Shown: positions 4,802 through 39,803 of the stretch, piece by piece | Layout of the letters: every line of letters begins with the position of its first letter | Position numbering within the stretch: the stretch's first letter is position 1 | Assembly: GCA_020055645.1 (NCBI GenBank) | Contig: CM034546.1 | Coordinates: forward strand, 8,184,001 to 8,248,000 | From: Tomocerus qinae | Lineage: Eukaryota; Arthropoda; Collembola; Entomobryomorpha; Tomoceridae | Length of the DNA stretch: 64,000 bases | Reading direction: 5' to 3' | Notes under the pieces: generated by a model | Seen by the model: only the letters and a program-made list of their open reading frames with translations | What the model was told of the DNA's origin: nothing | Databases searched by the model: none | Made by a program: the position numbers and the translations under genes

Positions 4802-7800
4802 ATGAAATCATTCGTGTTTTTTGTGCTGTTCCACAGTGGCTGCCTTCTAAGCGTAGATGCTTCAAATCAGTTTACAAAGTATCAGAAACCAGAAGAAGCA
4901 TTTACGTTTGGAGAATCGGAATCACCTATCAGTATGGAAATCTTTATTTATTTATTTTATTGATCAAATTTTACTTGTAAATAACATCATAATTTTTCCA
5001 AATCTGCCTGTATATAAATGCAAATTATTACATTTAGAAAAATTATTTTCTGTGCACAGCCAAATTAACAATTATTTACTAAAATGATCGAATTAACAGA
5101 AACAATACAACCTTATTGAGTATGACAGCAATATTTATGAGATTTTATGGTATAGACTATCAGAATCACTCTTCGACTGTAATGTGTATGCTGTCGTTAG
5201 ACGCTCATTGGCGTCAAGGAAAAGCACATTATAATGTTGACATGAATGACTCCACTCGTAACATTTCTTTCGATGGAAATCTTTGCACTCATGTTGTATA
5301 CAATAAGTTCCACATCGACTCTACAAATGGCCGTATCATTCCTAAGGATTATGGTAACTATATTTATTGAGCTTGTTCCGCGTTTATTTGGGTCAACTGC
5401 TATTGTTGGTACTGGGATAGGTGTATCTCAAATAATGTTATCTGCATTATTTTATCCTGATCACTATAATGTTAGCGGTGTAATACGTTTACTTCTCCGT
5501 GCAGATATATATTTATTAAATACTACATTAATCACATTAAAAATCAAATAACTCCCATATAAATTCCATACAATATAATCCTTCAATAAACTAGGTTATT
5601 GATTGTATAATTAAATTACATTATTCTAGAGTAAATATTTTACTTATGGTAACATAATATATATCACAATGCTTAAACATAGCATAAATGTATCTAGTTA
5701 CAGTGTTTGAATGTTAATGATTAATATTACCAGCCAGAGAGATTTAAATTTATCCAAATATAATTCCTACCTTTGCTAAATTGCAGCAATAAACTCTACA
5801 GTAAACACAGCCCACATTTTATTTTTATTATTTCGCGTCCCTTTAGATTACGAAAGCATTGCAACATTCATTTCAAGATTTAATAGATAAATGTATTTAT
5901 GTAATTTTTCGTAGAATTCATCAAGAAGTTTAACAATTTCATCAGAGCTAAATTCCCACACTTGAAATCTCTAATTAATTTAGATTTGAAGTGGACATCA
6001 TTTGAGGAAGGGTACCGGATATTATCGGGCTTGCTTTCAACAAATGCTAGCAGATCAAAGCTTGTGTCAGATTTGAAAGGGACTGTAAGGTAAGAAAATG
6101 ACGAATGTATGGTCTTGAAACGACGGCGTTTTAATTTAATTTAGCCACAAAAAACAACTTCAAAGGCTATGTACCCTTACCTACGCTTAGAACATTTTAA
6201 CTATAGTAGAAAGTACAATTAATGACTCAATGACGTAAAATAATATTTAAACTGGTTAATTATCTTTTATGGCAGAGACTTAAATTTGTCGGGGTTATAT
6301 TTTTCTCGAAAAGTAAATATAAACTATCCTGACCCAAGAAATATAATTTTGGACTTTGCAAAGGTAATAATTCATTTTAACCTTAATTTATTATGCTGGT
6401 ACTGTTATGGTAAGTATACCGTATTAAAGTTCTGTCTGTACTTTTTAATATATTATGATGTTCTCCTGACAATTTATATTAGAGTCTTAAACATGAATTC
6501 GAAAAATATGGTCTACTGCTAGCTACTGAGATACCTGGATATTCTATTAGCAATTTGAACAAAAATTATAACCAAGTCGGACAAATCAGCAGAATTTTCG
6601 ATATTGTAGTCGTGCAAGGATGGGGATATGACAATTTATATCAAGGAAAGAAGGGACATATAGCTCCTTTATTCGTAACTGAGGAGAATGAACGTGGCAG
6701 CATTAGGAAGACATTAAATCATATTATAACTAATATGAATGTCCAACCTAACAAATTGGTCCTGGGAATTTTTTTGCTGGGAGCACCACGACTACGTGTA
6801 AATGGTGGGATAAGTAAAGACATTTTGAAAGGTCCAATGCTCCTGTATAATTTTTGGCTGTATTTTGAGGTACGTTTTTTAGCCCATTAATTAATATTTC
6901 ATTGTTAGAATTCTAAATGCCAACATATCAACTGAACACAACTTAAACCATTGGTATCAAAAAATATGAAAAAGTTTAAACAAAAAGTTATTATATAAAT
7001 ATAATAAATTTGAAAATAATTATCTATTAGACCTGTTCTTCAGCATTAGATAAATCTCAGTCATGGAACGTCTTTTGGGATGAAATTGCGAAGGCTCCAT
7101 TTATGGAAGATGATCAACGGTTGATAAGTTTTGAAAGTCCAAAGAGTGTGTATGAAAAGACTGTTTTCGCTAATAAGCTTGGTCTTCTTGGAGTTATGAA
7201 TGCTAACACGGAGGCAGACGACTTTAATGGAATTTGTACAAAAACTAAAAATCCTCAACTAAAAGCTATTAATACTGCGTTTGCAGATAGTGAAATTTGC
7301 AAACAATTTAAAGCTCGAATTAAAGACGTACATTTAAACTCAAAGGAAAATATTACCTTTGAACGTACCATTCAGTCTGTGACAGCAAAAGAAAAAGTTA
7401 CAATAACTTGCATTGTGCAAACTCCTTCAAAAAGAAACGTTTCTTGGATCAAAGTAAGAATTTAGACAGCCTTGGCAATTTAATACATTACAAGTTCTAA
7501 CCAACTATGCTTCAAACCAATTGTAAGCAATGAGCTGTAAGAATTTAAGTTATGCATTTAAAGTTCCGATTTTTTAAACGTTCCAAAAAGACATGATTAC
7601 ATTAATCTTAATTTAACAACGGAATTTAGTTATTTAATTAGCTTAATTAACAATTTATCTAGCCACAATACTAGGTTTTAAGAATTATTTTGTCACAAAT
7701 AAATGACATGAGTTATAATTAACTATTAAATTCTTTCAGGTTGATGGCAATAATGTGGAATCTCCTATTGAATCAGGACAAAACTCTAACGTAATTATAC

Positions 7801-10247
7801 ACCCTTCTGATTATAATCACACCTGGTGCCTACCGTATATTACAATCAAATCTACCCTGGAGATAGAAAAGATGGACATCCAAAATTCAGGTAAGTATAT
7901 TTGCAGCGTAGGGGGAGACAATAAAGCTGAGTCGGTTCTGCATTGCAAGGACAATTGTGAAGAAAAAAAGGAACAAGGTTCCTCTTGGCTTTGGTGGTGG
8001 GTTTTGTTAGGGATTGGTGTCTTCGCAGTTGTTGGTGTTACTATTTCAATCTGTCTCTGGGGTTTTAAACGCAAAAATGTGAGACTTATTTATTTATGAT
8101 TATTGACATATACTTAAAATAATATGGTTTAAGCTGTAGACACAAAATGGTATCTTTTAGGAAGGACTATCGGCAACAGAAATTCTTTTATTCCAAAATG
8201 GATATTTTAAAAAACGGAGGAATATAGAAAATTCGCCTGAAGATTGTATAAACCCAGAAGAGTTAAAATATGATCACGACTCTTACGAAATTTCAGAAGA
8301 TAATTTTGAAATTGGTATTCATATATTTAAGTTTTAATATGTATGTTAATTATGTATTTGTCTTCTTTATAGGTGTAAAATGTTTCCTTGTTTTATGTAA
8401 TTCTAATACAAATTCTAGCTATATTATTTGAAATACTTTATATAATATTTGAAACAGATACAGAAAAAGTTTTGGGGAGTGGCAACGTAGGTATTGTTTA
8501 TAAAGGAAGTGTCAAAGGCAACTTTGTGGCTGTCAAAACAACAAAGCCAGGTGGCGATAAACGATGTCTAAAATCTCTTTTACAAGAAGTGAAAATCTTG
8601 ATTCATATTGGAAAGCATCAAAATATTGTCAGCTTTATGGGTGCTAATACAAAACTACTATCCCAAGGTAAAAATATGTAATCGAATTTGAGACATGGGC
8701 ATCCTGTCCTGATTATGTAACTATAGAAATGTTTTAAACGGAATAATATTATTATATACTATTGCATACTATAGGAATTGTTTATCTTTTTGTGGAATAT
8801 GGACCTTTAGGAAGTTTAGACACATTTTTAAAAAAATCTCGAAAAAATTTCACGCATAGTTACATCAATGTGGAGATTAATAAAGAAGCAAATGGTTATA
8901 GGTATAAATCTAAATATTTAATTATTACTATATTTTCATATTTAAAAATTTTCCCATAATATGATTCTTTATGCGGATTTACAAAACTTTTCTTAGAGCT
9001 TATAATTATTGCACAACCTCTTCAGATTTAGCAAAATGGGCTTACCAAATTATTAAAGCTCTGCAACATTTGCGTATAAAGAAGGTTAATTTTCTAATAG
9101 CAGTTTATATCAATAATCATCCATGCTATATTAAACTAAGTTCGCATTGACTATGTAAAGGTGATTCATGGCGATGTGGCAACCAGAAATGTATTAGTGT
9201 TTGATGTCAACGTTGTGAAACTCACCGATTTTGGCCTTTCCAGGAAGCGATATAACTACAGTAACTACATTAAAAAAAGTGAAGTGAGTCATCCATAATT
9301 TTAACCAAGGTACATAAATCAAAAATCTTAGTAGTTATTGTCGCCATATTTATTTTTTATTTATCCCTGATGGTTATAATCTTAAATTTCTTTTATGAAA
9401 TATTTGTTTTATTTTAGAATACTGATACGCTTATAGAAGCCAGGTTAACTAAATTTTAAACATTAAAATTAAAATGCTTGTTTATATTTTAAAGAAATGG
9501 TATGATGGTCATAAATAATTACCAATACAATTTTACAACTGTTTGCATGCAATGTTCGATATTATTTTTGTAAGATTCTGCACATGCACATTGGACATAA
9601 TATAACTATATTTCGTAAGTTAGTTCTATAAAACTCTGTAAAAATTCACAACAACCAATTCCTGGTCACTTACTGATATGTACTTGGTATGTTTGGCTGG
9701 TTTGACAATTTAATAAAAACGATGAGTAAATTCTAAAGGATATTTTTTGAATATATTTTGTATTTAAAAGGATCCCCTACCTTGGCGATGGTTGGCAATA
9801 GAATCTCTCCGAGATACGACTTTCTCTTTCCAATCTGACGTATGGTCGTTTGGTGTCACTTTATGGGAAATTTTTTCTCTTGCTGAAACGCCCTACCCCG
9901 GAATGACTTGTTGTTTGGATTTTATAAAGCAACTAGAAACAGGATTGAGGATGGATATTCCTAAATACGCTACACAACCAATGTAATATATAATTCCATC
10001 TTTATTATAGTTTTATGACATTTATACACGCAACGTTAAAATGATAATTTCTTTTATGCATGTATAACTGCTTTATTAAATTATTTAATTAGATCCTTTA
10101 GGAATAAATTATTAGTGTTAATTTTTATTTTATTATAGTTATAACTTGATGAAAAAATGTTGGAGAGAGGAGCCTGAACAACGTCCGAAAATTAATGACA
10201 TAGAACAAGATTTTCTTGCCATACTTAAAACTAACCATTCTTCATGA
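4802..10247 (+). CDS. Receptor tyrosine kinase with chitinase-like (GH18) ectodomain
   Basis: Exons: 4802-4931, 5156-5353, 5915-6089, 6276-6363, 6483-6869, 7031-7453, 7740-8078, 8161-8314, 8458-8667, 8775-8901, 8997-9084, 9161-9283, 9771-9982, 10139-10247. All introns are GT-AG and phases agree. The joined frame is 2763 nt (920 residues plus TGA) with no stop. Order: signal peptide (1-21), GH18-like domain (about 48-400), Ig domain (about 425-530, C453, W465, C522), transmembrane helix (about 550-576), basic stop-transfer, juxtamembrane segment, kinase domain (about 632-918). It is expected at the plasma membrane as a type I receptor that phosphorylates tyrosines when its ectodomain is engaged; the ligand is unknown. 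AATAAA lies at 10423-10428. It is flanked by a truncated paralog on the left and, 49 kb away, by a third copy. Exon boundaries come from reading splice sites and paralog comparison; no transcript was available. Confidence 0.85.
5156..7310 (+). other. GH18-like ectodomain region (exons 2-6)
   Basis: The domain opens with a strand typical of GH18 starts, [13 protein letters not shown], followed by [12 protein letters not shown] and the [14 protein letters not shown] strand, and closes with [16 protein letters not shown]. In active chitinases the DGxDxDxE block carries the catalytic glutamate. The matching block here (residues about 173-180) reads SGLYFSRK, so both aspartates and the glutamate are replaced, the last by lysine (K180). 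This alignment was made by eye. The expected consequence is a sugar-binding or scaffold domain rather than an enzyme, as in known chitinase-like lectins and imaginal disc growth factors. Intron 3 of this copy carries about 85 bp (near 6121-6210) that are absent from the left paralog. Confidence 0.75.
8458..10247 (+). other. Tyrosine kinase domain region (exons 9-14)
   Basis: Visible kinase landmarks are the glycine loop GSGNVGIV (638-645), VAVK with K658, the helix C glutamate E675, the catalytic loop HGDVATRN (776-783, D778 and N783), DFG (796-798), [12 protein letters not shown] (816-827), [16 protein letters not shown] and a CW..EP..RP block. All residues needed for phosphotransfer are present. 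The HRD arginine is glycine (G777). The AxRN pattern and the LP.RW.A.ESL segment mark a tyrosine kinase, and the wording is closest to PDGFR/VEGFR/Torso-type receptors. The activation loop has Y804, Y806 and Y809. The loop joins correctly when exon 12 (phase 0) is spliced directly to exon 13 (phase 0). Confidence 0.85.
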
Positions 10248-11105: not shown

Positions 11106-12380
11106 ATGCATTCCTCTCTTGTCTTTTCATTAGGAAGGATGTTCTCCCGTTTGATTTTAACCGTGCTGCTCTCCTGTTGTATAAGCAGCAGCTTCAGTTC
11201 TGAAGAACTCGACTCAGAAAATTCCAGGTAAATTGTTAAAATAATAATGAATTGAAATAAAAAAATAAAAAATGTGCACTTTTTAAATGGAGTTTGTATT
11301 AATCGCTTTTGTTTTAATTGCAAACCAGTGCGGATTCTGCTACAGATTCTCTTCCGGACTTGTCGGATCAGTCAGATGAAAATGGCGGAGCAAATGTCTT
11401 TCATCTTGTATCTCATTTCAGCAGAGGTAAATACTAACAAACATTGAATTATTTTATAGAAAGACACTCCAAATTATTTGACGGACAGGTACCTTTTAAA
11501 TATTTCTTGGAAATAAATTTTTGTAATAAATTTTTCAGGAAATGTTTTTTGAAATAAGAAATTAATGCCATGTCCATTGATGGGAAATTGGAAATTAATT
11601 TTTAAATATTATTTATGAATAGCCTTTCCATCGAAAGTGTCACGGCAAAAGCGAGCTTATCAAGGTGATCAATATCGCCCTAGCTACAATATCCAACCAG
11701 CCAAAGTCAAGAGTCCATCATATTCGAGATATTCTGAGGATTCAGGTGTGAAATATTCAAGTAATAAATACTCTGTGCCTGAGAGAGAATATTCAAGTGG
11801 CGAATACAGATATGGTGACGACAGTCCCGGGAGATATTCAGGAGAAGACGGGGACAGCCCGTACCGTCAACGAAAAGTTATTTACAACCTCAGAGACCCT
11901 GTTCCAATACCCAATAATTACTACACCGGTACCTTTCCCTACATACCCGCCACACCGTATAACACATTAGGCCAACCTGTTATACCCGGCTACTCGCCCA
12001 GTCCTTTCAGCTACTCATCAACTCCATATACTTACACGCCCAGCCAATCCGGCTATTCTTACCTGCCTAATCAATATTATAACCCATATTCACCTGTGGC
12101 TCTAAATCAGCCCTACAGCAGTCCTTACAGTTCTTCTTACTACCCAGCAGCCCTGAATTCGTACTCCTCGACCTACTACCCGGGTCAGCCTGCGTACCCC
12201 GGTTTACCTGTCTATCCATACCCGCCCATGTACCCATATTATGGTAATCCTTACTCTGTCCCTTATGCCAACAGTCCCCCTGCCTCTGCTTCCTATACGT
12301 ACGCTCCGGCGACAACGTCCACAACAGCAACAACTACTACTACTGCACGACCAACAACACCAACAACAACAACTACTTAA
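11106..12380 (+). CDS. Secreted Tyr/Pro/Thr-rich protein, copy 1
   Basis: Exons are 11106-11227, 11329-11426 and 11623-12380; phases agree and the joined frame is 978 nt (325 residues). A second in-frame ATG at 11139 gives a cleaner signal peptide; the upstream ATG is kept because it is conserved in all three copies. After the signal peptide comes an acidic Ser-rich stretch, then SKVSRQKR (residues 77-84), a likely furin-type cleavage site. The mature part is rich in Tyr, Ser and Pro (YSSGEYRYGDD, then many PY/YP steps) and ends in a mucin-like Thr-rich tail from about residue 300. No enzyme domain is seen. Low-complexity YP-rich secreted proteins in arthropods are often cuticular, silk-like or adhesive, but nothing here fixes the role. 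AATAAA lies at 12723-12728. Confidence 0.75.
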
Positions 12381-16480: not shown

Positions 16481-17141
16481 CCGTTTGATATATATAGAAA
16501 ATTAGACGATTCGCCTTTCCTCATCATACAATTTGATCCACATACTCACTAGCTTTATTTACAACAGGGCCTGGGCCCTGTGACCGGCTCGTGTAGGTAT
16601 ATTAGCTAAAGCAGGTGTTATTATGCACGTTATAACACAACATTATTTTATTGGTAACATTACGATTTCCAAAAAGCAAAAACATGTTTTCGATGGATAT
16701 AATGGCAATTTTTATTGGAACTTTACCCATTCTGACCACCATACCATTCAAAATTGAATTATTGATTTAAGTAATCCTCACTGCATTACACTATGATGGC
16801 CATGTGACAAAAATACAGGAAATTTGCGCTTACAACTTATAAAGAAAATTTTTGTGGTGCAGGAAATGTAAATAGGAAGACAATGCAGGAAATGGACTAC
16901 ATTAATCTATTCCCAAAATCATATGCGGAAATATGTAGGGGATTGTAACAAGGAAACGGTTCGTTATCATAGGAAGTTCAATCAAAAGCCCGATTATTTT
17001 AATAATATGGTAATAATTTAATTGTACCACACTTTGTAAGAAGTAGAAGCACAAGCTTGCAAATCACAAAGCCGAAACTCGAAGAGTCCCGAATATTTTT
17101 TATTGTGTTCTTGGACTAAAATTATTATAAAAATTGGGGTC
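16481..17141. other. Intergenic, upstream of IR gene
   Basis: 16850-17000 resembles 21370-21510 upstream of the second IR copy (shared ATGCGGAAATATGTA-like and GGAAGTTC blocks), so the duplicated unit includes upstream sequence. Nothing else is recognised. Confidence 0.5.
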
Positions 17142-19373
17142 ATGACATTTAAAAAAGGTTTACTTGTTGCTCTAGTTATTTACAGTTTTACAACATATGT
17201 CTTCGGCATAAAAAATCTGTCGATTTGGAATAGCTGCGATTTCAACTTGATTGTGTTTCCAAATTCAAAATGGGTAGAGTTGTTTTTGGAGAAGAATCAA
17301 CATTCCCAGCCTTGGACAATCGCTTCGTCTGTAAATAAAACCTTCCACGAAGTTGACAAATTGACATTCAAAGACCTGTCTAAGATACATTGCAGTGTAA
17401 ATGTCATTGATGAACCAGATTCTACGTTTTGGGGTTTGGCACAATATTTCGGACAAAAGATATCGCGTCCGAGTTTTACTTCTGTATTTATATACGATGG
17501 TTTGGAAAAAAGAGATATCAATCATAATAGATGGCTTTCTCTTCCGATTGAGCACCCAACGGCGGAAATATACTACATCTTTGTTGAAAATCAATTTTCA
17601 TTCTCCACGTTTACTATAAACTTGTATAGACAAAATTATGGAGTTGATTTAAAGTTTGAACTAATTGCAATTAATGATAATCTGGATGAAATGAAATGGA
17701 AAGACATTTGGAGGGAGTACAATGGACAGCTCTATGGAAATACTGTTGCAGTACATTGGTTTGGTGGCAGTTCATACTATTCTGTGTCAAGGTTAGAATG
17801 CATACAATCGACCTATGAGCTAATTAAATATAATCTGCTCGCAAACTGCCTATACTTTATCAGACCAATGGAAACAGTGGCCAAGCGGCTTAATTTTTCC
17901 GTCGAATATTCTAATACCTATTTCTGGATGAGGACATTTTCTGAGAAAGAATACACAAAATACTTATCTGAAATTTATATCGACTTTGACTGGACTTTTT
18001 TAAAAGGTTTTTGGTTCAATTCACCAATATTTGTTGTCCACACTTCATTTCTTGCCCTTTACTGCGAAGAACAATTATATTTCAAGGATGTCACTCTTCA
18101 CGTTTTAATTCAAAACACATTTGATGGCACGAGTTGGATTTTAATCATTCTACTTCTACCCCTGGCATATTCAATTTCTACATTCAGGATAAACAAAACT
18201 CATTTAATTTACAAAAGTCTAGGACAAGTGGTCATGTCAACTGTCGCCATTGCCTTGGCACAGTTTAGCATTAACAGAGAAAGGAGAAATTTTTGCTTAC
18301 TGGTCATAATAATCACTTTTCTAATTAGATGTCACTATGAAACCTACATAACTGGGGAAATCGTAGCTCCGCTAGATACCAAAGGAGAATTGGATAGCTT
18401 TAAAGATCTTATTGACAACAACTATAAATTTTTGATTGCAATAGGATATCAATCGGATTTTGACTCCGGACACAATACAACAGTTCGATTGTTTAATAAG
18501 TTTAATTTAACGCATAAAATAAATTCTCATTCGTACATATACAATTGGAATAAAGAAGAATTGGCTCCATGTTACAAACTGAGAGGATGGGATGACTACA
18601 TTTTAGCGCAGAAATTACTTTTGGAACATAAAGGAAAATTGTTCACTTCCTACGACAAACGGGACATTGTAAACGTTTTATATGCAATTCACGAAAAGGA
18701 ACCACAAGCTATTTGTAGAACAGCGACACAAGAAATTATTCAAGCGCTCTCATCTTGGAAGTTTCATAATATCTACCGAAATGTTTTCAAAAACATCTTT
18801 CGAAAACTTTTTGAGTCTGGAATGTTGAAAATGTGGAGAGATCACGGTGAAACAAAATACTATTTTTCAAAAAATATCAACGAAGATAAGCCCATTAGCC
18901 TAGACATGAAAATTCACATTGTTTTTATTTTTTATCTGATTCTAATGGCCACATCAGTTGGCTTTGTACTTCTGGAAATCTTCCTGTTCAAATTGTTGGT
19001 TCTCTATGGAAAGATTGTACAAGAATGGACAACATTTTGTGGCTCTTTCCAACATCCACAGAAACTTCTTAAACGGTTAACAATAGTTGGGCAATTTTTG
19101 AAATTGTTTTCTGCAAGAGTTTTTTCCCATTTAAGAGACGGAAATTCACATAAACAACAATTGAAAAACAGTATTGAAGAAAAGAAATTAGCTGAATTTG
19201 TAACAGAGCCTTATGACCAAACCCAAAAAGATTCCGCCGCGGAAGAAATTTTAATTTTAGAAACAAGGTTAGAAAATTTAGAAAGAAAACTTCAATATGC
19301 TGTCACAAAAATCCAAAAACTTGAACATCTGCCAAAAAAAATCAAAAAAAATGTTCAAATTCTTCCTTGTTAA
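17142..19373 (+). CDS. Divergent ionotropic receptor (IR), intact, single exon
   Basis: A 743-residue frame. The ATG at 17142 is chosen because a signal peptide (KKGLLVALVIYSFTTYVFG) follows and the paralog at 22308 starts at the same place. Then comes a long extracellular ligand-binding region, a first membrane helix near residues 330-350 (WILIILLLPLAYSIS), a pore/second-helix block near 363-411 (VAIALAQF... then CHYETYITGEIVAPL), and a last helix near 590-620. This is the layout of the ionotropic glutamate receptor superfamily, arthropod IR branch, cation channels used in taste and smell. The C-terminus is unusual: about 120 residues are cytoplasmic, ending in a predicted coiled coil (near 700-730, ETRLENLERKLQYAVTKIQK). 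AATAAA is at 19389-19394. Intronless divergent IRs are common in expanded lineages. Confidence 0.85.
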   Translation: MTFKKGLLVALVIYSFTTYVFGIKNLSIWNSCDFNLIVFPNSKWVELFLEKNQHSQPWTIASSVNKTFHEVDKLTFKDLSKIHCSVNVIDEPDSTFWGLAQYFGQKISRPSFTSVFIYDGLEKRDINHNRWLSLPIEHPTAEIYYIFVENQFSFSTFTINLYRQNYGVDLKFELIAINDNLDEMKWKDIWREYNGQLYGNTVAVHWFGGSSYYSVSRLECIQSTYELIKYNLLANCLYFIRPMETVAKRLNFSVEYSNTYFWMRTFSEKEYTKYLSEIYIDFDWTFLKGFWFNSPIFVVHTSFLALYCEEQLYFKDVTLHVLIQNTFDGTSWILIILLLPLAYSISTFRINKTHLIYKSLGQVVMSTVAIALAQFSINRERRNFCLLVIIITFLIRCHYETYITGEIVAPLDTKGELDSFKDLIDNNYKFLIAIGYQSDFDSGHNTTVRLFNKFNLTHKINSHSYIYNWNKEELAPCYKLRGWDDYILAQKLLLEHKGKLFTSYDKRDIVNVLYAIHEKEPQAICRTATQEIIQALSSWKFHNIYRNVFKNIFRKLFESGMLKMWRDHGETKYYFSKNINEDKPISLDMKIHIVFIFYLILMATSVGFVLLEIFLFKLLVLYGKIVQEWTTFCGSFQHPQKLLKRLTIVGQFLKLFSARVFSHLRDGNSHKQQLKNSIEEKKLAEFVTEPYDQTQKDSAAEEILILETRLENLERKLQYAVTKIQKLEHLPKKIKKNVQILPC

Positions 19374-20780: not shown

Positions 20781-22307
20781 AATGATTAATATAATAATAG
20801 TGAGGATTCTTTTTGAATACCTCCCTTTCGTATGGTCATTTCCCCAAGTGCGCATAATACTGGAATTTGGAAGATAGGGATGCAATAATCTAATCGTACA
20901 TATGCATCGCACAATTCAACGTCCCCGGATCGGACATACGGCCAGACTAGAAGGCCCCATCTCAGGGTGGGGCGCCGCACGTGTCCAACCCTACAAACCT
21001 AACCTCTATATATTATAGCCACCGTCTTTGCTAAAGCAATACATTTCCTTCCTATGCATGTATATCTTATATGTGTGGTAGGGCGGAATCAGGCACGTAT
21101 CCAGAAGTTTGGTCAAGGAGGGTGCAACAAATAATTATGAAATTAACTTAACATATTCGCGTGAAAAAATTTTCGCAATTTTTGGCCTTTTATGGCAAAA
21201 AACTTTTTCACAAATTTAGGGAGGTCGTTTTCCTCATTAAAGGATACTTACTTAAGGCAGGGTAATACTAAAAAGCAAATACAAATGAGTCATAATATTT
21301 CCAACAATCTCGACTTACAATTAACTCTGTTTCCTGTGTTTGTCCCCTTCCACTTAAGGAAGGGTTTGTGGCATAGGAAATGCAAACAGGAACAGGATAT
21401 TATAAAGGAAATGACCTACATTATCCATTATACGCGGAAATATGTAAGGAACAGGAAGAAAATTTTTTGTTGTAGGAAGTTCCATGCATTATTTTGGTAT
21501 TAATTTAATAGGTTTAGGGATTTACTAGCAAGAAGGCAACGATGGAGAAGCCCTTGATAACCTCAAAGAGTAACGAAAGATTGTCAAAATTTTTATTGAT
21601 TAATTTTAATTACAATGATCAAAAATTGACAGTAACAAAAAACGCACTTTATACACATTGGCACAATAAAATTAGCTAAAAAAGTCCGTCGTTAGTAGAA
21701 ACATAATCACGCCTTAAGCATTGATTTTTGACGTCTGATACACATCGCCTTAAGTTTCAGCGCATGGAGCGAAAGATGAACTTATATTAAATACCAACAG
21801 TAGTAAATACATCTTGATAGCAAAAAAATGTAGCAAATAATCGTAATTATTGTGTAAAAACGTACATCACGTAATTGCCGTAATAAACGCCGTGGCATTT
21901 CTTCAGCCTCTTTAGACAAACGCAGTGTCAATAATAAACATCCGTTGGTTCAATACTATTAAATTAATTTTGATATTTTACATTTCCGTTAAAATAACAA
22001 AACCGCCGATTAATTAATAACCGTCGCATCAAAATTTGTCTTCCAAACGCTAATTGTACAAGTGGTGGCCTTTATTAGAGCATTTACGGTAAAGGACAAT
22101 TATTAGGAGTATGACTGCCTTACTTCAACCGGAATATGTATACAGAAAATTATGAGGAAGAAATAAAACTGCGGACACTGATTCTACCAACCAGAATAAA
22201 AAATATAAACATTTTGATATATTTAAAATTATAAAAATTTAAAATCAGCAGCTAGAGCACACTTTAAGAAAGCTTAGACTCGATAGTATTGCATTTTAAT
22301 TGGAGTC
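20781..22307. other. Intergenic with MITE remnant and duplicated IR flank
   Basis: 21092 carries TCAGGCACGTATCCAGAAG, the left end of the element at 13804, with no clear right end. 21370-21510 resembles the upstream flank of the first IR at 16850-17000. 20890-20995 is a GC-rich patch of unknown origin. The frame at 21192-21503 overlaps the duplicated flank and shows no coding signal. Confidence 0.5.
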
Positions 22308-24496
22308 ATGACAAACCAAAAGGTTTTACTTGTTACCCTAATTGTTTTTCATTTTACAACATACGTTTTTGGTATAAGAAATCTTTCGGGATTTAATAGT
22401 TGCGATTTCAACTTGATTGTATTTCCAAATTCAAAATGGGCAGAGTTATTTTTGGAGAAAAATCAAAATTCCCAGCCTTGGACAATCTCTTCGTCTGTAA
22501 ACAAAACGTTCAACGATGTTGACAGATTGACATTCAAAGACCTGTCAAAGATACATTGCAGTGTAAATGTCATTGATGAACCAGATTCTACGTTTTGGAG
22601 TTTGACTCAATATTTCGGACAAAAGATATCGCGTCCGAGATTCATTTCTCTATTTATATACGATGGTTTGGAAACAAGAAATGTCAATCACAATAGGTGG
22701 CTTTCTCTACCGATTGAGCACCCAACGGCGGAAATATACTACATCTTTGTTGAAAGTAAACTTTCGTTCTCCACGTTTACTATAAACTTGTACAGACAAA
22801 ATTATGGAGTTGATTCAAAGTTTGAACTAATTGCAATTAATGATAAACTGGATGAAAGGAAATGGAAAGACATTTGGAGGGAGTACAATGGACAGCTCTA
22901 TGGAAATACTGTTGCAGTACATTGGAGTGATGGGAATGACGACTTTTCTGTGTCAAGGCCAGAATGCATACAGTCGACCTATGAACTAATTCAAAATAAT
23001 CTGCTCGCAAATTGCAAATACTTTTTCAGACCGATGGAAACAGTATCAAAACGGTTTAATTTCTGTGTGGAATATTCTAATTCCAATTTCTGGATAAAGA
23101 CTTTTTCGGATCAAAAATTCACAAAATACTTATCTGAGATTTTTATTGATTTAAACTGGATGTTTCCAAAAGGTTTTTGGTTCAATTCACAAATATATAT
23201 TCGGCATTCTCAACGTTTTGCCCTTTATTGTGAAGAACAATTATACTTTAAAGACGTCACTCTTCATGTTTTAATTCAAAACACATTCGACGGAGTTAGT
23301 TGGATTTTAATCATTCTGCTTCTACCGCTGGCCTATTCAATTTCTGCAATCAGGATAGACAAAAGACATTTAATTTTCAAAAGTTTGGGACAAATAGTTT
23401 TGTCAACAGTCGCCATTGCCCTTGCAAAGTTTACCATTAGTCAGGAAAGAAGGAATTTTTGCTTGCTAGTCATAATTATGACTTTTCTAATTAGATGTCA
23501 TTATGAAACGTACATAACTGGAGAAATCGTAGCTCCGCTGGATACCAAAGGAAAATTAGATAGCTTTGAAGATCTGATTAATAACAACTTTAAAGTATTG
23601 TTTTCAATCAAATATGATAGGCCTATTGACAATGAACACAATTTAACATTTGGATTGTTTAGTAAGTTTAATTTAACGCATAAAATAAATTCTCATTCGT
23701 ACATTTACAATTGGAATAATGAAGAATTAGCTCCATGCTACAAGCTCAGAGGATGGGATGACTACATTTTAGCTCAGGAATTACTTCTGAAACCGAAAGG
23801 GAAAATTGTTCACTTTGTTCGACAAACAAGAGGTTGCCAAAGTTTTATACTTAATTCATAAAAGGGAACCACAAGCTGTTTGTAAAACAGCGACGCAAGA
23901 AGTATCTGAAGAGTTTCATTCTTGGGCTTTTTATAATATCTACCGAAATGCTTTCAAAAACTTTTATAGAAAACTTTTTGAGTCTGGAATGTTGGAGATG
24001 TGGAGAGATCACGGTTTAACAAAATATCACTTTTTCAAAAATTTTAACGAAGATAAACCTATCAGTCTAGATATGAAAATTCAAATCTTTTTTATTTTTT
24101 ATCTAATTCTAATGGCCACATCCGTTTGTTTTGTATTCTTCGAAATCTTACTGTTCAAATTATTCGTACTCCGTGAAAACATTGTACACGAATGGAAAAC
24201 ATTTTGTGACTCTTTACAACATCCAAAAAAACTGCTTGAACGATTAGCAATAGTTTGGCAATTTGTAAAAAACATTTTCTGCAAAAGTTAGTTCTCCTTT
24301 AACAGAAGTAAATGCAAATAAACTGAAAACCAGCATTGACAATGACAACTCATCTGAATTTGTAACACAACTCCATGACAAATCCCAAAAAGATGCCGAC
24401 GCAGAGAAAATTTACATTCTTAAAACACGAATTGGAAATGTAGAACGAAAACTTCAACATGCTATTGAAAATATCCAAAAACTTGAGAAAATGTAG
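22308..24496 (+). pseudogene. Ionotropic receptor paralog with frameshifts
   Basis: It is very similar to the IR at 17142-19373 along its whole length, from the signal peptide (ATG 22308) to the coiled-coil tail. Relative to that copy there is one extra G in a GGG run at 23799-23801, which shifts the frame and ends the first frame at 23861. The second part continues in another frame (23806-24291) through the last membrane helix. A further one-base change near 24265 brings a stop at 24289-24291, although homologous tail sequence (ending GAG AAA ATG TAG at 24496) continues. Membrane and pore segments are otherwise conserved, so inactivation is recent, or one or both indels are assembly errors. 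Confidence 0.75.
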
Positions 24497-30563: not shown

Positions 30564-33174
30564 ATGCATTCCTATTTTGCTATTTCATTTGGAAGGATGT
30601 TCTCCCTTTTACTTTTTAACGTGCTGCTCTCTTATTGTGTTAGCAGCTGCTACAGTTCTGAACATCTCGACTCTTTAAGGTAAATTGCTCAAATAATATT
30701 GAATCAAAAATTAAAAGTAACATGTACTACATTTTTTCAATGAATTTTGTATTAATCGCTTTTGTTTAATTGCAAACCAGTGCATATTCCACCGATAATG
30801 CTTCAGGTATAGAGAAAAATAGTACCAATTCTGTTACAAATTCCGTTCCGGACTGGTCGGATGGAAATGTCTTTCATCTCGTACCTCGTTACATCAGAGG
30901 TAAATACAAAGACACATTGAATTATACTAGACTTCAGTGGGATTCAATCTCCACTTTTTTGTGAAATGTATTGAAATAATTTTTTCAATACATTTCGTAT
31001 GAAATTAATGAATTCGTCGTATATATTAAAGGAAGCTTTGATATTAACGACTCAATGAAATAATTTAAATCGTCAATAAATAATAAATTTATTGGTAAGT
31101 GTTAAGAGGTGAGTAAGAATAATTTGAAAGACCAATACACAATAATATAAAAAGTCAATGCAAACACTGAATAGGTAAATGGTAGTTGCTATTAGGTAGA
31201 AACCCAAACGAAACTCCGAAACAGAGAAGTGAGAGACGGCCTGCTGAGGGTTTGAGTGCTTATGTTTAACGTCTTTAACGCTTATCAATGGAACTTTGTA
31301 AGCTGTTTTGACATAGGCCCAGCAATGCAAAGGAGTAAACTCTTAAGCCGGGTAAATTAAATTCAAGGTTCTAGTTAATAGCAACATATATCGATGTCAC
31401 TTTTGTGAACTGTATTTTATTGTCGTTATTCTTTCGTTTATAATAATGCCAAAATGTTTTTCAGCTGTACTCTAGCTTGTTCTCCAATCTATAAATATTT
31501 TTGAGAAATGGGCTGTCCTCAGTTCCCGATTGGGACTATAGTTTTATTGTGAAGCCAATTGCGGAAAGCAGGAAGGATACTTACTAGGCCAAGGAGTGCG
31601 AGTGAAGAATAGTAGAGAATTGTGTCGTTTACTTCCTTTTAGTACATAAATATCTTTCCTCAAACTAACTCTTATCGGTCAACCAATTAACATAATCATG
31701 ATATCCTACAATCTTAGCCCTCTTTCCCTCCACCTTCTGGGTTTCTACCAAATAGCAACTGCCACTTACGTATTCAGCGTTTGTATTGACTTTTTAAATT
31801 ATTATGTGTTGACCTATTCAAATTATTCACATTTGCCACTTTAACATTTACAGATTAAATTATTAATTGACGATTCAATACCTTTCATTTGAATTGAATG
31901 AATTTATTATGCTTATACACGCCCGTTGTATTTGGATCATATTTTAAGAGTCAATGAAATAATATAAATTATCAATGAATAACAATTTAATCAATAGACG
32001 ATGAAGAAGGTAAATTAGGATAATTTGAAAAGGTCAATACACAATAATTTATAGAATCAATGCCAACGCTGAATGGATAAATGGCAGTTGCTATTAGGTA
32101 GAAACTCTACCTCTTCAACTTCTTCGACATTTACAAATTAAATTATTATTCATTGACGATTATAATTATTTTATTGACCCATTTAATATCATCCCTTTCA
32201 AACTATTTATTTATCAAGATATATCTCTTGCAATAAGAAATTATTGCTAGAATCTGTTAACGGAAAATTGGGAAGTAATTTTTAAATATTATTTATGAAC
32301 AGCATTTCCATCTAAAGTGTCACGGCAAAAGCGAGCTTATCAAGGTGAACAATATCGCTCCAGCTACAATATCCAACCAGTCAAGAGTTCATCATATTCG
32401 AGATATTCTGAGGATTCGGGTGTGAAATATTCAAGCAATAAATACTCTGTGCCTGAGAGAGGATATTCAAGTGGCGAATACAGATATGGTGACGACAGTC
32501 CCGGGAGATATTCAAAAGGAGACGGCGACAATCCTTACCTTCAACGAAAAAGGATGTACATCGTCAAAGTCCCTGTCCCAATACCCAATAATTACTACAC
32601 CGGCGCCTTTCCCTACATACCCGGCACACCGTATAACACATTAGGCCAACCTGCTATGCCCGGCTACCTGCCCAATCCTTCCAGCTATTTACCAACTCCA
32701 TCTGCTTACACGCCCAGCCAACCCGGCAATTCTTACCCGCCTACTCAATATTACAACCCATATTCACCTTCGGCTCTAAATCAACCCTACAGCAGTCCTT
32801 ACAGTCCTTCTTACTACCCAACAGCGCTGAATTCGTACTCCTCGACCTACTACCCGGGTCAGCCTGCGTATCCCGGTGTGCCTGCCTATGCATACCCGCC
32901 CATGTACCCATATTATGGTTATCCTTACTCTGTCCCTTATGCCAACAGTCCGCCTGCCTCTGCTCCTCCGACAACAACGTCCACAACAGCAACAACAACT
33001 ACTACTACACCAACAACAACCATTACTACTACACCAACAACAACAGATACTACTACACCAACAACAACAGATACTACTACACCAACAACAACAGATACTA
33101 CTACACCAACAACAACAGATACTACTACACCACCAACAACAACTCCTTTCGATTATGGCGGTTATGATTATTAA
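30564..33174 (+). CDS. Secreted Tyr/Pro/Thr-rich protein, copy 3
   Basis: Exons are 30564-30679, 30781-30899 and 32303-33174; phases agree and the joined frame is 1107 nt (368 residues). Order: signal peptide, Ser/Asn-rich acidic segment (longer than in copy 1), SKVSRQKR (82-89, furin-type site), YSSGEYRYGDDSPGRYS, then a Pro/Tyr-rich stretch (NPYSPSALNQPYSSPYS), and a Thr-rich tail with five repeats of PTTTDTTT from 24-bp units, closing with FDYGGYDY. The tail length is likely to vary between individuals because the repeat is perfect. Intron 2 (1.4 kb) carries an inserted inverted-repeat cluster (31040-32190), absent from copy 1. AATAAA lies at 33271-33276. Function unknown; an extracellular structural or mucin-like role is only a suggestion. 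Confidence 0.75.
31040..32190. mobile_element. Inverted-repeat element cluster in intron 2 of copy 3
   Basis: The left block at 31040-31095 (GATATTAACGACTCAATG, AATCGTCAATAAATAATA) is the approximate reverse complement of the right block at 32135-32190. A sub-block with TGGTAGTTGCTATTAGGTAG (31175-31200) also occurs inverted near 31740 and direct near 32085, so copies are nested. Intron 2 of copy 2 holds only a right-end piece (27650-27715). Probably MITEs; no coding capacity. Confidence 0.55.
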
Positions 33175-33872: not shown

Positions 33873-35855
33873 TTATCTACTACTAGCTACATTTACAATA
33901 CAGCGCAACGCCTTTCGCCGATATGTAGTATTTAGTGTATAAATCACAATTTCCCCCAACACTGAACAGATGGCCACAGTGCAAGCCATGAAGTAAACAA
34001 TGAAAACCCCTCCAAAGTTATCCACCGTAAGCGACTTGATACGATTATCTGATAATCTCACAAAAAGATTTGACAAAGTTTTGTAAATGACTCCGTTTTT
34101 ATTTTTTAGTAAGTTTTCTTTCCCTTTCCTCCTTTCTTCAATTACAACATCATTTTCCCACTTGATCATATTGGCTGTATCTCTAAGCATGGACGTGACT
34201 CTGCTGAATGATTCGGTGTACAGTGAATTTCTTTGTAGGCCAAAGGTCACTGCAACAAAATTGGGGGAATCTTTAGAGAAGTACAATGGAGTAAATTGCC
34301 TTTTTATAGTGAGGACCTTGGCCGCTGTTGCTACATTAACCCATCCCAGGCAGACGTGTTTTGGTTTAAGAATTACCGAAGTGATGCATGTCTCCGGGTT
34401 TTTCAATAATATAAACCGGTTTTTAAGACTTTTATAAACCTGGTTTGTACTTTTATTGAAAAAGTCGTAGCCCACTCCGCCGACATAGTGAAAGTTCAAC
34501 GTGTATTCTTGTTTCAAGTAAAGGTCGTGAAATGTTTTGGGAATTTGCTCCTTATGTGGAAAGGTGAGGAAGGAAACTAAATTCGTCTTATACCCAATCC
34601 CTGTAACAACCACGAAAAACATCCACAGTCCGGAGATCAGTTTAATTCCTTTAACTATCTTAGGTAATCTCGTCCCTTGCTCCACAGAAATTGAAAATGC
34701 CAAGAAAATAGATTGGAAAATGACAAAACTTGGTTTATTCTGCCTAAATTTGTTAAGTTTTAAAATAAAATAGAAGACGGGTACAATAGTAGTAAAAACG
34801 ACAAGAATGAAGATCCAGACTAGTTCAGAGAACGGGTAAAGAATTGCAGTCCACTTGGTAAACACTTCGGGATGGGCGGTGACAAAACTGAAACAGACGT
34901 ACGAAAGTTCTGAAGAGTGGTCCATGTATTTAAATCTAGCGAGAATATTACCATCGATAATTTTCAAATCCTTCCTCCCACTGATAATGTCGCCCACCGA
35001 GCCAGTCCATGTCCCATTGTCCAGTTGGATCCCAATCTGTTTAACAGTTAGTGGTTGCGGATCAATATCGAATGTAATATTGTAGTATTCTGCCATTGAG
35101 ACAAGGGCCTTGTAATAAAATCCTGACAGAGTTTTGTTGTCTTCCAAATAAAATATATATGGGGCTAAACGGAAAGAACTTGTGGTGATGTGAATATTTC
35201 TCAAGTTAAAAAACGAACGTGAAAATGTCGGGACGTTAGTCATTATAATAACTGAATTAAGCGATCTATCCCTCCCTCGCATAGTTGTAAGGAGTGCTAC
35301 GTTTCTGGGGTCATCTTTAAAAAATCCGATACCCATTTTCAGTTTTAGTCGCTTTATTGTGGGATTTCGACGGAGAAATGAAGTAATTATATGCGTGTAC
35401 CCGATGAAAATGAATCTGTCACTTTGTGGTTTTCCAAAACAGTCCATTCCATTAGCAATGATGGTCTCCACAGCCGTTTCATGCTGTTTGATTTGAAATA
35501 TGGCGAAAGTTTGACAGAAGAAATTAAACCTTAGATATTGTTTCTGTATAGTCCATCTTGTAGTTTCCAATTCTGAATGTGATTCGCGATGAAAATGGAA
35601 CGAATTTGCAAACATGGAAATTGGAACGTTTTGGCTTGGGAAGATTTCTAAATTTATAAAATCCATGTCCAAAATTTCATCAAACACAAAACTCACGGAA
35701 CAAAATTCAGCGGTTTTTGCAGCAGAGAGAGAAACTACTTTATTTATAATCTCCGACACTTTTCTGTCCAAAGTTTCGGAAGTGTTCTCTGCAGCAAATA
35801 TTATTAGCACTAAAATAATTATAACTACAATTTGTCTTCTCGGATACATCTTCAC
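33873..35855 (-). CDS. Ionotropic receptor (IR), intact, single exon
   Basis: 660 residues from ATG at 35853-35855, with a signal-type hydrophobic start (VVIIILVLIIFAA). The S1 ligand-binding half shows the family wording SGFYYKALVSMAEYYNITF (243-262) and GTWTGSVGDIISGR (281-294). TM1 is near 346-364, the pore near 378-398, TM2 near 404-424 (LISGLWMFFVVVTGIGYKTN), S2 near 440-600 and TM3 near 614-638. This is the ionotropic glutamate receptor superfamily, IR branch: a ligand-gated cation channel in sensory neurons. It shares little with the IR at 17142, so two IR lineages sit in the window. The neighbour at 37482-39803 is its tandem paralog on the same strand. The plus-strand frames over this locus are antisense shadows. 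Confidence 0.88.
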   Translation of the reverse strand: MKMYPRRQIVVIIILVLIIFAAENTSETLDRKVSEIINKVVSLSAAKTAEFCSVSFVFDEILDMDFINLEIFPSQNVPISMFANSFHFHRESHSELETTRWTIQKQYLRFNFFCQTFAIFQIKQHETAVETIIANGMDCFGKPQSDRFIFIGYTHIITSFLRRNPTIKRLKLKMGIGFFKDDPRNVALLTTMRGRDRSLNSVIIMTNVPTFSRSFFNLRNIHITTSSFRLAPYIFYLEDNKTLSGFYYKALVSMAEYYNITFDIDPQPLTVKQIGIQLDNGTWTGSVGDIISGRKDLKIIDGNILARFKYMDHSSELSYVCFSFVTAHPEVFTKWTAILYPFSELVWIFILVVFTTIVPVFYFILKLNKFRQNKPSFVIFQSIFLAFSISVEQGTRLPKIVKGIKLISGLWMFFVVVTGIGYKTNLVSFLTFPHKEQIPKTFHDLYLKQEYTLNFHYVGGVGYDFFNKSTNQVYKSLKNRFILLKNPETCITSVILKPKHVCLGWVNVATAAKVLTIKRQFTPLYFSKDSPNFVAVTFGLQRNSLYTESFSRVTSMLRDTANMIKWENDVVIEERRKGKENLLKNKNGVIYKTLSNLFVRLSDNRIKSLTVDNFGGVFIVYFMACTVAICSVLGEIVIYTLNTTYRRKALRCIVNVASSR

Positions 35856-37481
35856 TTCCAGCTTGAAAATATTTCTTGGAATTGTTTTAAGACAGTAGAA
35901 TTATTGTTTGTTTAGCTATTGGAAGAGTAAAAAAATGTCCAATATGAAATCTATGTTAATCCTGAACGTTGTTGCTCCATTATTGGCAATGTTTCAAGTA
36001 AATAACCTTTTATCCAAATTATCCAAAAGTGAAGGTTTTACTGAAATACGGATTAAAAATGTATAGCCCTAATTTATTTACGTCCAGAATCAGCCATAAT
36101 GTAGTTCTGTCGTAATTTCCACGTAATTGTAAGATAAATTTGATATTTGTCTCCCATTATCCAATTACACATTTATGTATTGATATCGATATGATATAAA
36201 CAACTTTCTATCGTAAAATTAGAAGGTATTATCAAAGGAAACTATAAGTGGTGGTTCTTTGTTACTTTCATTTGACGATCGATGACGACGAATTTATTGA
36301 AGAGCTTACAGATAGAAAGATGTGGAAACATCCAGGGCTATTAAACCGAGTAAGGCAAAACAAAGTAAATAATTGATGATCGCAAATTTATTGATTATAT
36401 CTAATTGGATTTCTTGGTATTATTTATCGATTATGTTATTGGCAACAAGCAATTGTCATTGGCAACAAGCAATCAGACAATTGATATGCACGCGAAGTGG
36501 CTAGGTGAATCCTCATGATAAACGGAAGAGAAATGATGGGATATTACACACCATTTAAAGGTTCTTTATTCTATTGGTTGTATCACTTCAATCTGTCGGG
36601 TTTTCTAGGTCCTAAACATCCGGTCAATTACGTGTCATTTGAAACATATTTTGCATGTCTTCCTAAATCTGCCAAAGTTCTACTCAGATTATATGATGCA
36701 GTACCTGGTTGAAATGAGAAACGGATTTTTTATATTGTGTAAAAAAATTGATTTATTCGAGCTATTTATGCATTCTCTAAATTTAAGGCTGTAAAATCAT
36801 AACAAAATGCGGCCAAAAGGTTAAACCATTTTCAGGGATTTTAATTAGTTGTGTATATTTCCTTCTTATTCGCTTCACTCTTTAGTTATAGACATTGTAA
36901 AACATCATGAGATAGCTCAGTAGAAGCGTTATTCGTTAGGTTAGGCCAACGTCAAGTCATTTGGTTTGAAAGGTTAATGATCATTAAAAAAATTCACTGA
37001 AAACGTCTTGTAACGTCGAAAAGCCTTGTCATCTCCGCTAATTTTTATATGCATTTGACATGGTTTATTATGTATTTTGATAGTTATTTGAGTCTTTCAT
37101 ATATACTAGGAGCTTAAGCAAAACTGAAAATCAAAAATTACTACTCCACACAAGCAAAACTGACTACAAACGCAGAGAAAACCCCACACAGTATAGCTAG
37201 CTAAACAGATTGCGCATACACAAATGACACAATTCTATTTGTGGATGTCCAAAATAAATTCACCACCTTGATCTAGTAAGTAGTAAGGCAATTTAGTAAG
37301 AACTAGCGTTGCAACAATTCTGCCATCTTACGAGGCCAAGGTATTTAGTTTACCCTGGATGCCCACATTTTAGTTTTATTATTACTCAGGCTAGGTTACA
37401 TCTTAACACTCTAATCCAAATTACTTCATGGAGCTATAGCTAAATTTAGAAACTCTTATGCCTTATTCATTGAGCTAGTTT
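35856..37481. other. Intergenic with repeat R2
   Basis: 36888-37090 resembles 44225-44420 (shared GACATTGTA, CATCATGAGAT/CGTCATGAGAT, GTCAAGTCAT and ATCTCCGCTA blocks), a dispersed repeat here called R2. The frame at 36515-36712 has no recognisable domain and no paralog; I do not call it. Confidence 0.5.
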
Positions 37482-39803
37482 CTATACTAAACTAGCTACA
37501 TTTACAATGCAAGGCAACGCGTTTCGCCGATATGTATTTAATGTATAAATGACAATTTCCCCCAACACTGAACAAATGGCCGCAGTACAGACTATGAAGT
37601 AGACCATGAAAACCCCTCCAAAGTTATCCAACGTAAGAGGTTTGATACGATTATCTGATAATCTCACGAGAAGATTAGATAGAGTTTTGTAAATGACTCC
37701 GGTTTTATTTTTTATTAAATTTTCTTTCCCTTTCCTCTTTTCTTCACCAAGCACTTCATTTTGCCAATTGATTATGTTGCCCGTGTCTCTTAGCATTGAT
37801 GTGACTCTGCTGAACGATTCGGTGTACAATGAATTTCTTTGTAGGCCAAATGTCACTGCCGCAAAATTTGGCGAATCCTTAGAGAAGTACAAGGGATTAA
37901 ATTGGCTACTTATCGTCAAAACTTTTGCTGATGTGGCTGCATTGACCCATCCCAAGCAGACGTGCTTTGATTTCAGAATTACCGAAGTGATGCATGTCTC
38001 CGGATTATTCAATAATATAAACCGATTTTTAAGGTTTTTGTACACCGGATTTTCGCTTTTATTAAAAAAGTCGTAACCCACGCCTCCAACATAGTGGAAG
38101 TTCAAAGTGTATTCTTGTTTCAAGTAAAGGTCGTGAAATGTTTTGGGAATTTGCTCTTTATGCGGAAAGGTGAGGAAGGATGCTAAATTAGTCTTATACC
38201 CAATCCCTGTAACAACCACGAAAAACATCCACAGTCCGGAGATCAGTTTAATTCCTTTAACTATTTTAGGTAGTCTCGTCCCTTGCTCCACAGAAATTGA
38301 AAATGTCAAGAAAATAGATTGGAAAATGACAAAACTTGGTTTGTTCTGCCTAAATTTGTTAAGTTTCAGAATAAAATAGAAGACGGGTACAATAGTAGTA
38401 AAAACGACAAGGATGAAGATCCAGACTTGTTCAGAGAACGGGTAGAGGATTGCAGTCCACTTGGTAAACACTTCGGGATGGGCGGTGACGAAACTGAAAC
38501 TGACGTAAGCAATTTCAGAAGAATGATCCATTAAATTAAATCGATCCAGTACCCAAGCTGCAAAAATGTAATGTTGGCCCAGTGTCAGTTTTGACCGCCG
38601 GGACTGCAGCGGCCCTATATCGGCGAGAAGGGCCACCGCTGGGCCAACTATTCGCCAACCTCGGCCCGTAGTTGGGAGGGCGGACAAAACGGAGAATAGC
38701 CGACGGTGGGCAATGATTGGCAAATGATCGGGAAAAGATCGGCAACGTACTTCCTTTGAGATGGGGCCCACGCCACCCCAATATTCGTGTTCTACATGTG
38801 CGATTTAGTTAAAAGACATCGAAAAATACATGGCCGATGGTTTGCCGATGTTGGCCCAACATATGATTTGCAGCTTGGGTAGATTTCCATCTACAATTTT
38901 TAAATCTGCCCTCCCACTGATAATATCCCCCACTGATCCAGTCCAAGTTCCATTCGCCATTGGAATTCCAATTGCATCAAGACTTAGTGGTTGCGGATCT
39001 ATATCGAATGTTATATTGTAGTAGTCTGCCATTGAGACCAGTGCCTTGTAATAATATCCGGACAGCCTTTTGTTATCTTCCAAATAAAACAAATATGGTG
39101 ATAAAAGAAATGAAGTTGTGGTTATATGAATATTTCTCAAGTTGAAACATAAATACGAAAATGTTGGAATAGTCGTCATTATCATAACTGAATTAGGCGA
39201 TTTATTCCTCCTTCGCATCGTTGTAAGTATTGCCACGTTTCTGGGGTCATCTTTGAAGAATCCGATACCCATTTTCAGTTTTAGTCGCTTTATTGTTGGA
39301 TTTCGACGCAGAAAAGAAGTAATTATGTGCGTGTAACCGATGAAAATGAATCGGTCACTTTGTGGCTTTCCAAAACTGTCCATTCCATTAGCAATTATGG
39401 TCTCCAAAGCAGTTTCATGTTGCCTGACTTGAAATATGGCGAACGTTTGACAGAAGAAATTAAACTTTAGATATTGTCTCTGTATAGTCCATCTGGTAGT
39501 TTCCAATTCTGAATGTGATTGGCGATGGAATTGGAACGAATTTACAAACATGGAGACTGGAACGTATTGGCTTGGGAAGATTTCTAAATTTATAAAATTC
39601 AGGTCCGAAATTTCATCAAATACAAATGTCACGGGGCAAAATTCAGCGGTTTTTGCAGCAGAGAGAGAAACTGCTTTATTTATAATCTCAGACACTTTTC
39701 TGTCCAGAGTTTCTGAAGTGTCCTCTGCAGCAGATATTATTAGCACTAAAATGATCATGAACGCCGTTATTGGTCTTTCCAGGATATGCTTCTTCTTCAG
39801 CAT
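37482..39803 (-). pseudogene. Ionotropic receptor paralog interrupted by a TA-flanked MITE
   Basis: It is closely related to the IR at 33873-35855 along its full length, from the ATG at 39801-39803 to the stop at 37482-37484. A 328-bp MITE lies at 38552-38879. The coding sequence reads to the residues IVDGNL, enters the MITE and stops at 38805. On the far side it resumes with LDRFNLMDHSSE and stays open to the end. Removing the element and one TA rejoins the reading frame exactly, at the position matching DGNILARFKYMDHSS in the intact paralog. No other lesion is seen: pore, TM1-TM3 and ligand-binding wording are conserved. The insertion is therefore young, and it may be polymorphic. Confidence 0.85.
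38550..38881. mobile_element. Tc1/mariner-type MITE in IR coding sequence
   Basis: The termini CCCAAGCTGCAAA and TTTGCAGCTTGGG are perfect 13-bp inverted repeats (38552-38564 and 38867-38879). They are flanked by TA on both sides (38550-38551 and 38880-38881), the target duplication of Tc1/mariner elements. The 328-bp interior is much richer in GC than the host region and has more inverted matches (TGTTGGCCCA near both ends). There is no transposase. Confidence 0.85.

Follow-up and report, generated by a model that had tools for sequence, protein, structure and literature searches.

A 64,000-nucleotide stretch of contig CM034546.1 of the springtail Tomocerus qinae (positions 8,184,001 to 8,248,000; hereafter the window) carries a gene, called B here (4802-10247, forward strand), the product of which is probably a receptor tyrosine kinase that crosses the membrane once and resembles VEGFR/PDGFR, with an ectodomain composed of a catalytically dead GH18 barrel, that is, a chitinase fold, and one Ig domain. 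As far as sequence can tell, B belongs to a large duplicated family, some members of which have two barrels around an Ig.

The exon chain of B was built from GT donors and AG acceptors together with the reading phase. Fourteen exons are joined in this way to a single frame of 2763 nt (920 aa) with zero internal stops, as an earlier reading of this DNA from its letters alone (the sequence-only reading) had proposed. A 26-nt candidate exon (9418-9443) was rejected; it is out of frame with B, and the count of fourteen is therefore right. Each exon below rests on the spliced frame, with further support in brackets; A and C are neighbouring copies of the gene, described further on.

4802-4931 (+): exon 1, start codon and signal peptide (hydropathy; paralogous exons in A, 46.5% identical, and C, 37.5%)
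5156-5353 (+): exon 2, start of GH18 with the CTHxxY strand (Pfam)
5915-6089 (+): exon 3, GH18 (Pfam)
6276-6363 (+): exon 4, GH18, the DxxDxDxE motif site replaced by SGLYFSRK (active-site alignment)
6483-6869 (+): exon 5, GH18 (Pfam)
7031-7453 (+): exon 6, end of GH18 and start of Ig (Pfam)
7740-8078 (+): exon 7, end of Ig and membrane helix (Pfam, hydropathy)
8161-8314 (+): exon 8, juxtamembrane part
8458-8667 (+): exon 9, kinase N-lobe with GSGNVG, VAVK and the alpha-C Glu (Pfam, residue table)
8775-8901 (+): exon 10, kinase, hinge and start of the kinase insert (Pfam)
8997-9084 (+): exon 11, kinase (Pfam)
9161-9283 (+): exon 12, catalytic loop and activation-loop tyrosines (residue table)
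9771-9982 (+): exon 13, kinase C-lobe with PLPWRW (motif count, residue table)
10139-10247 (+): exon 14, end of the kinase and stop (Pfam)

The domain order along this frame (signal peptide, GH18, one Ig, membrane helix, tyrosine kinase) is likewise the one claimed earlier, and it is the layout of a receptor tyrosine kinase, with signal peptide, ectodomain and a single membrane helix ahead of the kinase. Pfam Glyco_hydro_18 matches residues 81-382 (E 7.9e-24; 85.3 bits versus a cut-off of 29.6) and positions 17-310 of its 317 are covered, which upholds the GH18 fold; PK_Tyr_Ser-Thr matches residues 632-909 (E 8.6e-72). For the Ig domain (residues 434-524) the Ig_3 match of B (3.3e-6, 27.9 bits) stays slightly below the 30-bit cut-off, while that of copy C lies above it (33.6 bits). 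The signal peptide corresponds to a hydropathy peak at residues 3-21 (mean 1.54), and the membrane helix to one at 555-573, where the mean over 19 residues is 2.65.

Judged by the exon structure, GH18, Ig, helix and kinase of B belong to one gene. That two neighbouring genes, for a secreted GH18-Ig protein and for a kinase, have been wrongly joined might be suspected from the presence of a GH18-only gene, copy A, beside the receptor; however, exon 6 runs in a single open frame from the last part of GH18 into the Ig domain and exon 7 encodes the Ig end together with the membrane helix, for which reason the two-gene model was rejected, and the introns separating the GH18 part from the kinase measure 286 bp at most. 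A split into two genes, named by the sequence-only reading as the outcome that would undo it, is thus contradicted. The plan of B recurs in copies C and D at such sequence distances that a chance joining is hardly likely, and in another receptor class of the family GH18 and membrane helix even lie within one exon; altogether, a wrong joining is very improbable.

The architecture is also not a one-off. The genome comprises 334 Mb, and the contig of the window (C1) accounts for 140 Mb, or 42% of the assembly. A GH18 search of it yielded at least 143 exon matches, 105 of them on C1, and a search with a kinase exon 153 matches, all genome-wide counts being lower bounds; the kinase-exon analyses use the 150 matches listed, 128 of which are on C1. 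A GH18 match on the same strand ends within 8 kb upstream of 37 of these 150 kinase exons, in 30 cases within 2.5 kb, while the controls gave three (GH18 downstream) and none (other strand). In this pairing B was coupled to the GH18 match of copy A, its own not being among the matches listed, and a few distant pairs may be neighbouring genes. Twenty-five stretches (L009-L033) were fetched, almost always on account of a GH18 match; a family kinase was found in 18, every time preceded by GH18 in the same orientation. One of them, L011, holds copy D, which follows the plan of B from GH18 to kinase according to its alignment to B (without a Pfam scan); its model starts at B residue 45, the first exon lying outside the fetched piece. 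In L023 and L019 the order is GH18-Ig-GH18-membrane helix-kinase, two GH18 domains and the Ig being confirmed by Pfam in both models, and the membrane-proximal GH18 and the membrane helix share one exon in all four regions inspected (L023, L019, L028, L015). With copies C and D and the 37 paired kinase exons, the fusion proposed for B is thereby extended to a gene family.

Two observations concern the recent history of these loci. Kinase matches at 1.94-1.97 Mb and 2.09-2.12 Mb of C1 have equal or nearly equal scores and the same order, 152-154 kb apart, which resembles a recent segmental duplication; and GH18 exon matches at C94:2879-3049 and C1:34101475-34101645 are equal in length and score, so that the former is perhaps a leftover haplotype copy. 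No match to the whole B protein was found in a collection of viral contigs; the kinase alignment retrieved two distant kinases from a collection of genome contigs and one from the viral collection (22-27% identity).

Among solved structures, the GH18 part of B is closest to the insect chitinase OfChtIV (6jm7; E 6.9e-27, B residues 52-413 aligned), an active enzyme with DGLDVDWE whose solved chain contains neither a membrane nor a kinase part. GH18 active-site residues, designated here by their established names and roles, were compared between 29 GH18 models from the family, 24 of them from loci whose fetched piece also contains a kinase, and six chitinases, namely OfChtIV and five modelled from this genome; in distant copies (L018, L031) the alignment is poor at some motif columns. 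Of the 23 family copies with a residue aligned to the catalytic Glu, none has retained it (0/20 in kinase loci), and none of the 29 has the Trp of the -1 subsite (0/24), while all six chitinases keep both. The Met of MxYD is absent throughout (0/29), as is the GGW Trp in the MAFFT alignment (0/16 copies with a residue there), whereas a phmmer alignment to OfChtIV pairs a B Trp with it. Scaffold residues, an Asp-Asp and a Cys, are kept in 29/29.

An intact DGxDxDWE motif occurs at 18 places of the genome (reversed control, 0). None of them has any of the 150 listed family kinase exons within 20 kb downstream, and only one has a kinase exon nearby, on its upstream side. Given the lost Glu of DxxDxDxE and the separation of intact motifs from the listed family kinases, an active chitinase was rejected as ectodomain. 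A possible exception with a retained active site was C1:65527015, a high-scoring GH18 match with a kinase behind it; no unsplit intact motif was found there, though one split by an intron would escape this search.

Loss of the active site did not leave the domain free to drift. Pairwise ratios of nonsynonymous to synonymous substitution rates (dN/dS) for GH18 are 0.33 (A-B) and 0.29 (B-C), and values of about 0.3 indicate that selection keeps the fold; those of other parts are 0.35 (Ig), 0.39 (juxtamembrane) and 0.18 (kinase C-lobe, the most constrained part between B and C). A tree separates 30 barrels of the family, copy A being added to the previous 29, from the six chitinases with a support of 100 (quick method, SH-aLRT only). 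From these comparisons, the GH18 domain of the family is a maintained pseudoenzyme.

This bears on the idea, put forward by the sequence-only reading, of a direct chitin-sugar sensor, in which the GH18 cleft binds chito-oligosaccharides and the output is tyrosine phosphorylation. The fold itself stands, with an insect chitinase as best solved match and with the Trp pairing by phmmer; 12 of the 29 copies retain the MxYD Tyr and 8 its Asp; and chitinase-like lectins such as CHI3L1, structures of which match the GH18 part of B, bind chitin oligomers without catalysis. Yet the -1 subsite Trp, by which a chitin-binding lectin would be recognized, is among the residues missing from the modelled copies, together with the catalytic Glu, the MxYD Met and (in MAFFT) the GGW Trp, unlike in the modelled chitinases of the same genome. 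With key residues of the sugar cleft lost, it is improbable that chitin is sensed through the usual site, and the proposal is weakened to an outside chance; a protein ligand or an unusual glycan would be at least as likely as chitin.

The residue table of the kinase part comprises 19 models, one of B and one from each of 18 loci. The alpha-C Glu and the Lys that binds ATP are present in 19/19, and the catalytic Asp of HxD, the Asn and DFG in all 18 models covering that part; B thus has the Lys, Asp and DFG of a tyrosine kinase. The Arg of HRD, usual but not essential, is replaced by Gly or Ala (HGD/HAD) in 18/18 models with the loop, next to the retained catalytic Asp; kinases without this Arg are common among plant immune receptors. 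HAD or HSD, together with PLPWRW, was also read in 6/6 additional kinase loci (L035-L037, L039-L041); no GH18 match was found within their 3.4-kb pieces, and in L039 an Ig-like stretch and a helix can be made out by eye ahead of the kinase. Genome-wide there are 128 places with PLPWRWxA (control, 0) and 239 with an H[GASC]D loop (control, 1), both counts being of loops and not of proven receptor genes, and the latter standing without a count of HRD in the same genome. Among single-kinase PDB chains VEGFR2 and PDGFRA are nearest (about 1e-78), followed by KIT, FLT3 and FGFR1, while rank 1 went to an EGFR chain that contains two kinase stretches and so has their scores summed; the kinase would accordingly be nearest to the VEGFR/PDGFR class, as assigned by this ranking only. 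It seems that the starting point was an Ig-type receptor similar to VEGFR/PDGFR, which multiplied, and that a GH18 domain was acquired in one branch of its descendants.

The HRD change, the soluble copy A and some broken members could also be taken as signs of a decaying or non-signalling family, made of ligand traps or pseudokinase scaffolds and not of active kinases. The retention of Lys, alpha-C Glu, Asp, Asn and DFG in the models covering them and the strong constraint on the C-lobe (dN/dS 0.18) do not agree with such a fate, which we regard as improbable.

A number of points nevertheless weigh against the preferred reading, that of a family of receptor tyrosine kinases with dead GH18 barrels. 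Seven of the 25 stretches (L009, L012, L013, L021, L026, L027, L029) have GH18 and no kinase within the piece, and such pieces contributed five of the 29 GH18 copies to the active-site comparison (three from L021, one each from L026 and L027). Besides the partly kept Tyr and Asp of MxYD, a single Asp of the catalytic motif is present in a few rows. Low pairwise dN/dS names no ligand. The change from HRD to HGD or HAD could lower or alter kinase activity, and some members may be pseudogenes, e.g., L031, which has no recognizable kinase C-lobe, and L018, in which the kinase could be followed only partly.

For the receptor reading preferred here, the following mode of action may be envisaged. The GH18/Ig ectodomain would bind an extracellular ligand, a protein or an unusual glycan, the pseudo-chitinase acting as binding or spacing module; bound ligand would pair receptors and thereby switch on the kinase. 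Secreted copy A might serve as soluble decoy or co-ligand and could compete with B for ligand. The expansion, with its varied outside and conserved inside, suggests that many outside cues are sensed.

Copies A and C are represented in the window by the following exons.

317-491, 591-678, 805-1191 and 1339-1680 (+; 317-1680 overall): copy A, GH18 paralogue, exons 3 to 6
59636-59771, 60048-60248, 63413-63593 and 63681-63768 (+; 59636-63768 overall): copy C, second full receptor, exons 1 to 4, continuing past the right edge of the window

Exons 1 and 2 of copy A (the signal-peptide exon and the following one) lie left of the window. Its frame stops right after the GH18 domain, making it a secreted, GH18-only version, and in the stretch between it and B no match at E <= 1 was found for any part of B from Ig to kinase. 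Over 301 GH18 codons A and B are 91% identical; at the start of exon 5 the first 67 residues are identical (805-1005 in A, 6483-6683 in B) and the remainder differs, a pattern as left by gene conversion. Copy C repeats all fourteen exons with GT/AG borders and has Pfam matches for GH18, Ig_3 and kinase; it has no stop at the place homologous to that of B, so its end lies further on. Between B and C, identity amounts to 60% across GH18 and to 88% across the kinase C-lobe. The window also has long minisatellites, their basic units measuring 18, 20 or 52 bp, at 46832-47711, 51049-51985, 52529-52954, 61875-62437 and 62937-63313, the last two within the second intron of copy C.

Elsewhere in the window, long single-exon open reading frames form two look-alike pairs by eye (17040-19373 and 22287-24291 on the forward strand, 33873-35900 and 37482-39848 on the reverse strand). 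The one at 33873-35900 has a Lig_chan match (7.3e-14) and its pair resembles insect-like ionotropic receptors; that at 17040-19373 has no Pfam match, and those at 22287-24291 and 37482-39848 are each split in two, perhaps damaged or intron-bearing. Two similar Tyr/Pro-rich open reading frames with Thr-rich ends (11619-12380 and 32299-33174, forward strand) are present, one of them just downstream of B. Scans of the window for RNA folds, promoters, RNA families and tRNAs gave nothing informative.

Animal receptor tyrosine kinases are known to draw on a short list of ectodomain types, which the sequence-only reading gives as well and in which GH18 does not figure. With the VEGFR/PDGFR class, whose arthropod member is PVR, the family shares the kinase (VEGFR2 and PDGFRA being the best matches), the Ig ahead of the membrane and a juxtamembrane stretch, PYDAS in VEGFR1 and PYDASYE in L023. 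It differs in having one or more GH18 barrels where the class has a row of Ig domains, B possessing a single Ig instead of five to seven, in HGD/HAD for HRD and PLPWRW for the usual LPxKW, and in an almost absent C-terminal tail of the kinase, as in B. CHI3L1 (YKL-40) and the insect IDGFs are catalytically dead GH18 barrels with signalling roles; they are secreted proteins that carry no kinase, the cleft Trp lost in the family is present in CHI3L1, and structures of CHI3L1 match the GH18 part of B at about 1e-9, while IDGF-2 (E 0.14) does no better than chance.

The closest layout is found in plants, where 91 sequences of GH18 receptor-like kinases, tobacco CHRK1 included, combine a predicted GH18-family ectodomain with an intracellular kinase, according to a review (PMC5485988). 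There the kinase is of the plant receptor-like type and the ectodomain is predicted to be enzymatically active, whereas B has an animal-type tyrosine kinase and the barrel of its family is dead; the passage on the plant receptors mentions no Ig (PMC5485988), and B has one. A separate origin of the plant and animal forms appears to follow from these differences.

It is possible, though rather doubtful, that a VEGFR/PDGFR-like receptor has given rise to as many as about 240 kinases without the HRD Arg, of which dozens bear a single or double pseudo-chitinase barrel on the outside, as an animal counterpart of the plant receptor-like kinases for many environmental or immune cues. A receptor kinase with a chitinase fold outside is a design known from plants; for animals no GH18-tyrosine kinase receptor was found, as far as this can be checked, in literature searches of titles and abstracts, which also addressed springtail kinase expansions and had most subscription papers outside their coverage. 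Questions of ligand, decoy and kinase regulation become directly testable with the soluble GH18 twin, with receptor classes of one and two barrels, and with the altered HRD. GH18 receptor kinases in an animal and in plants would be a case of convergence, and a constrained GH18 pseudoenzyme, serving as ectodomain in dozens of genes, would add a new construction principle for animal receptor tyrosine kinases.

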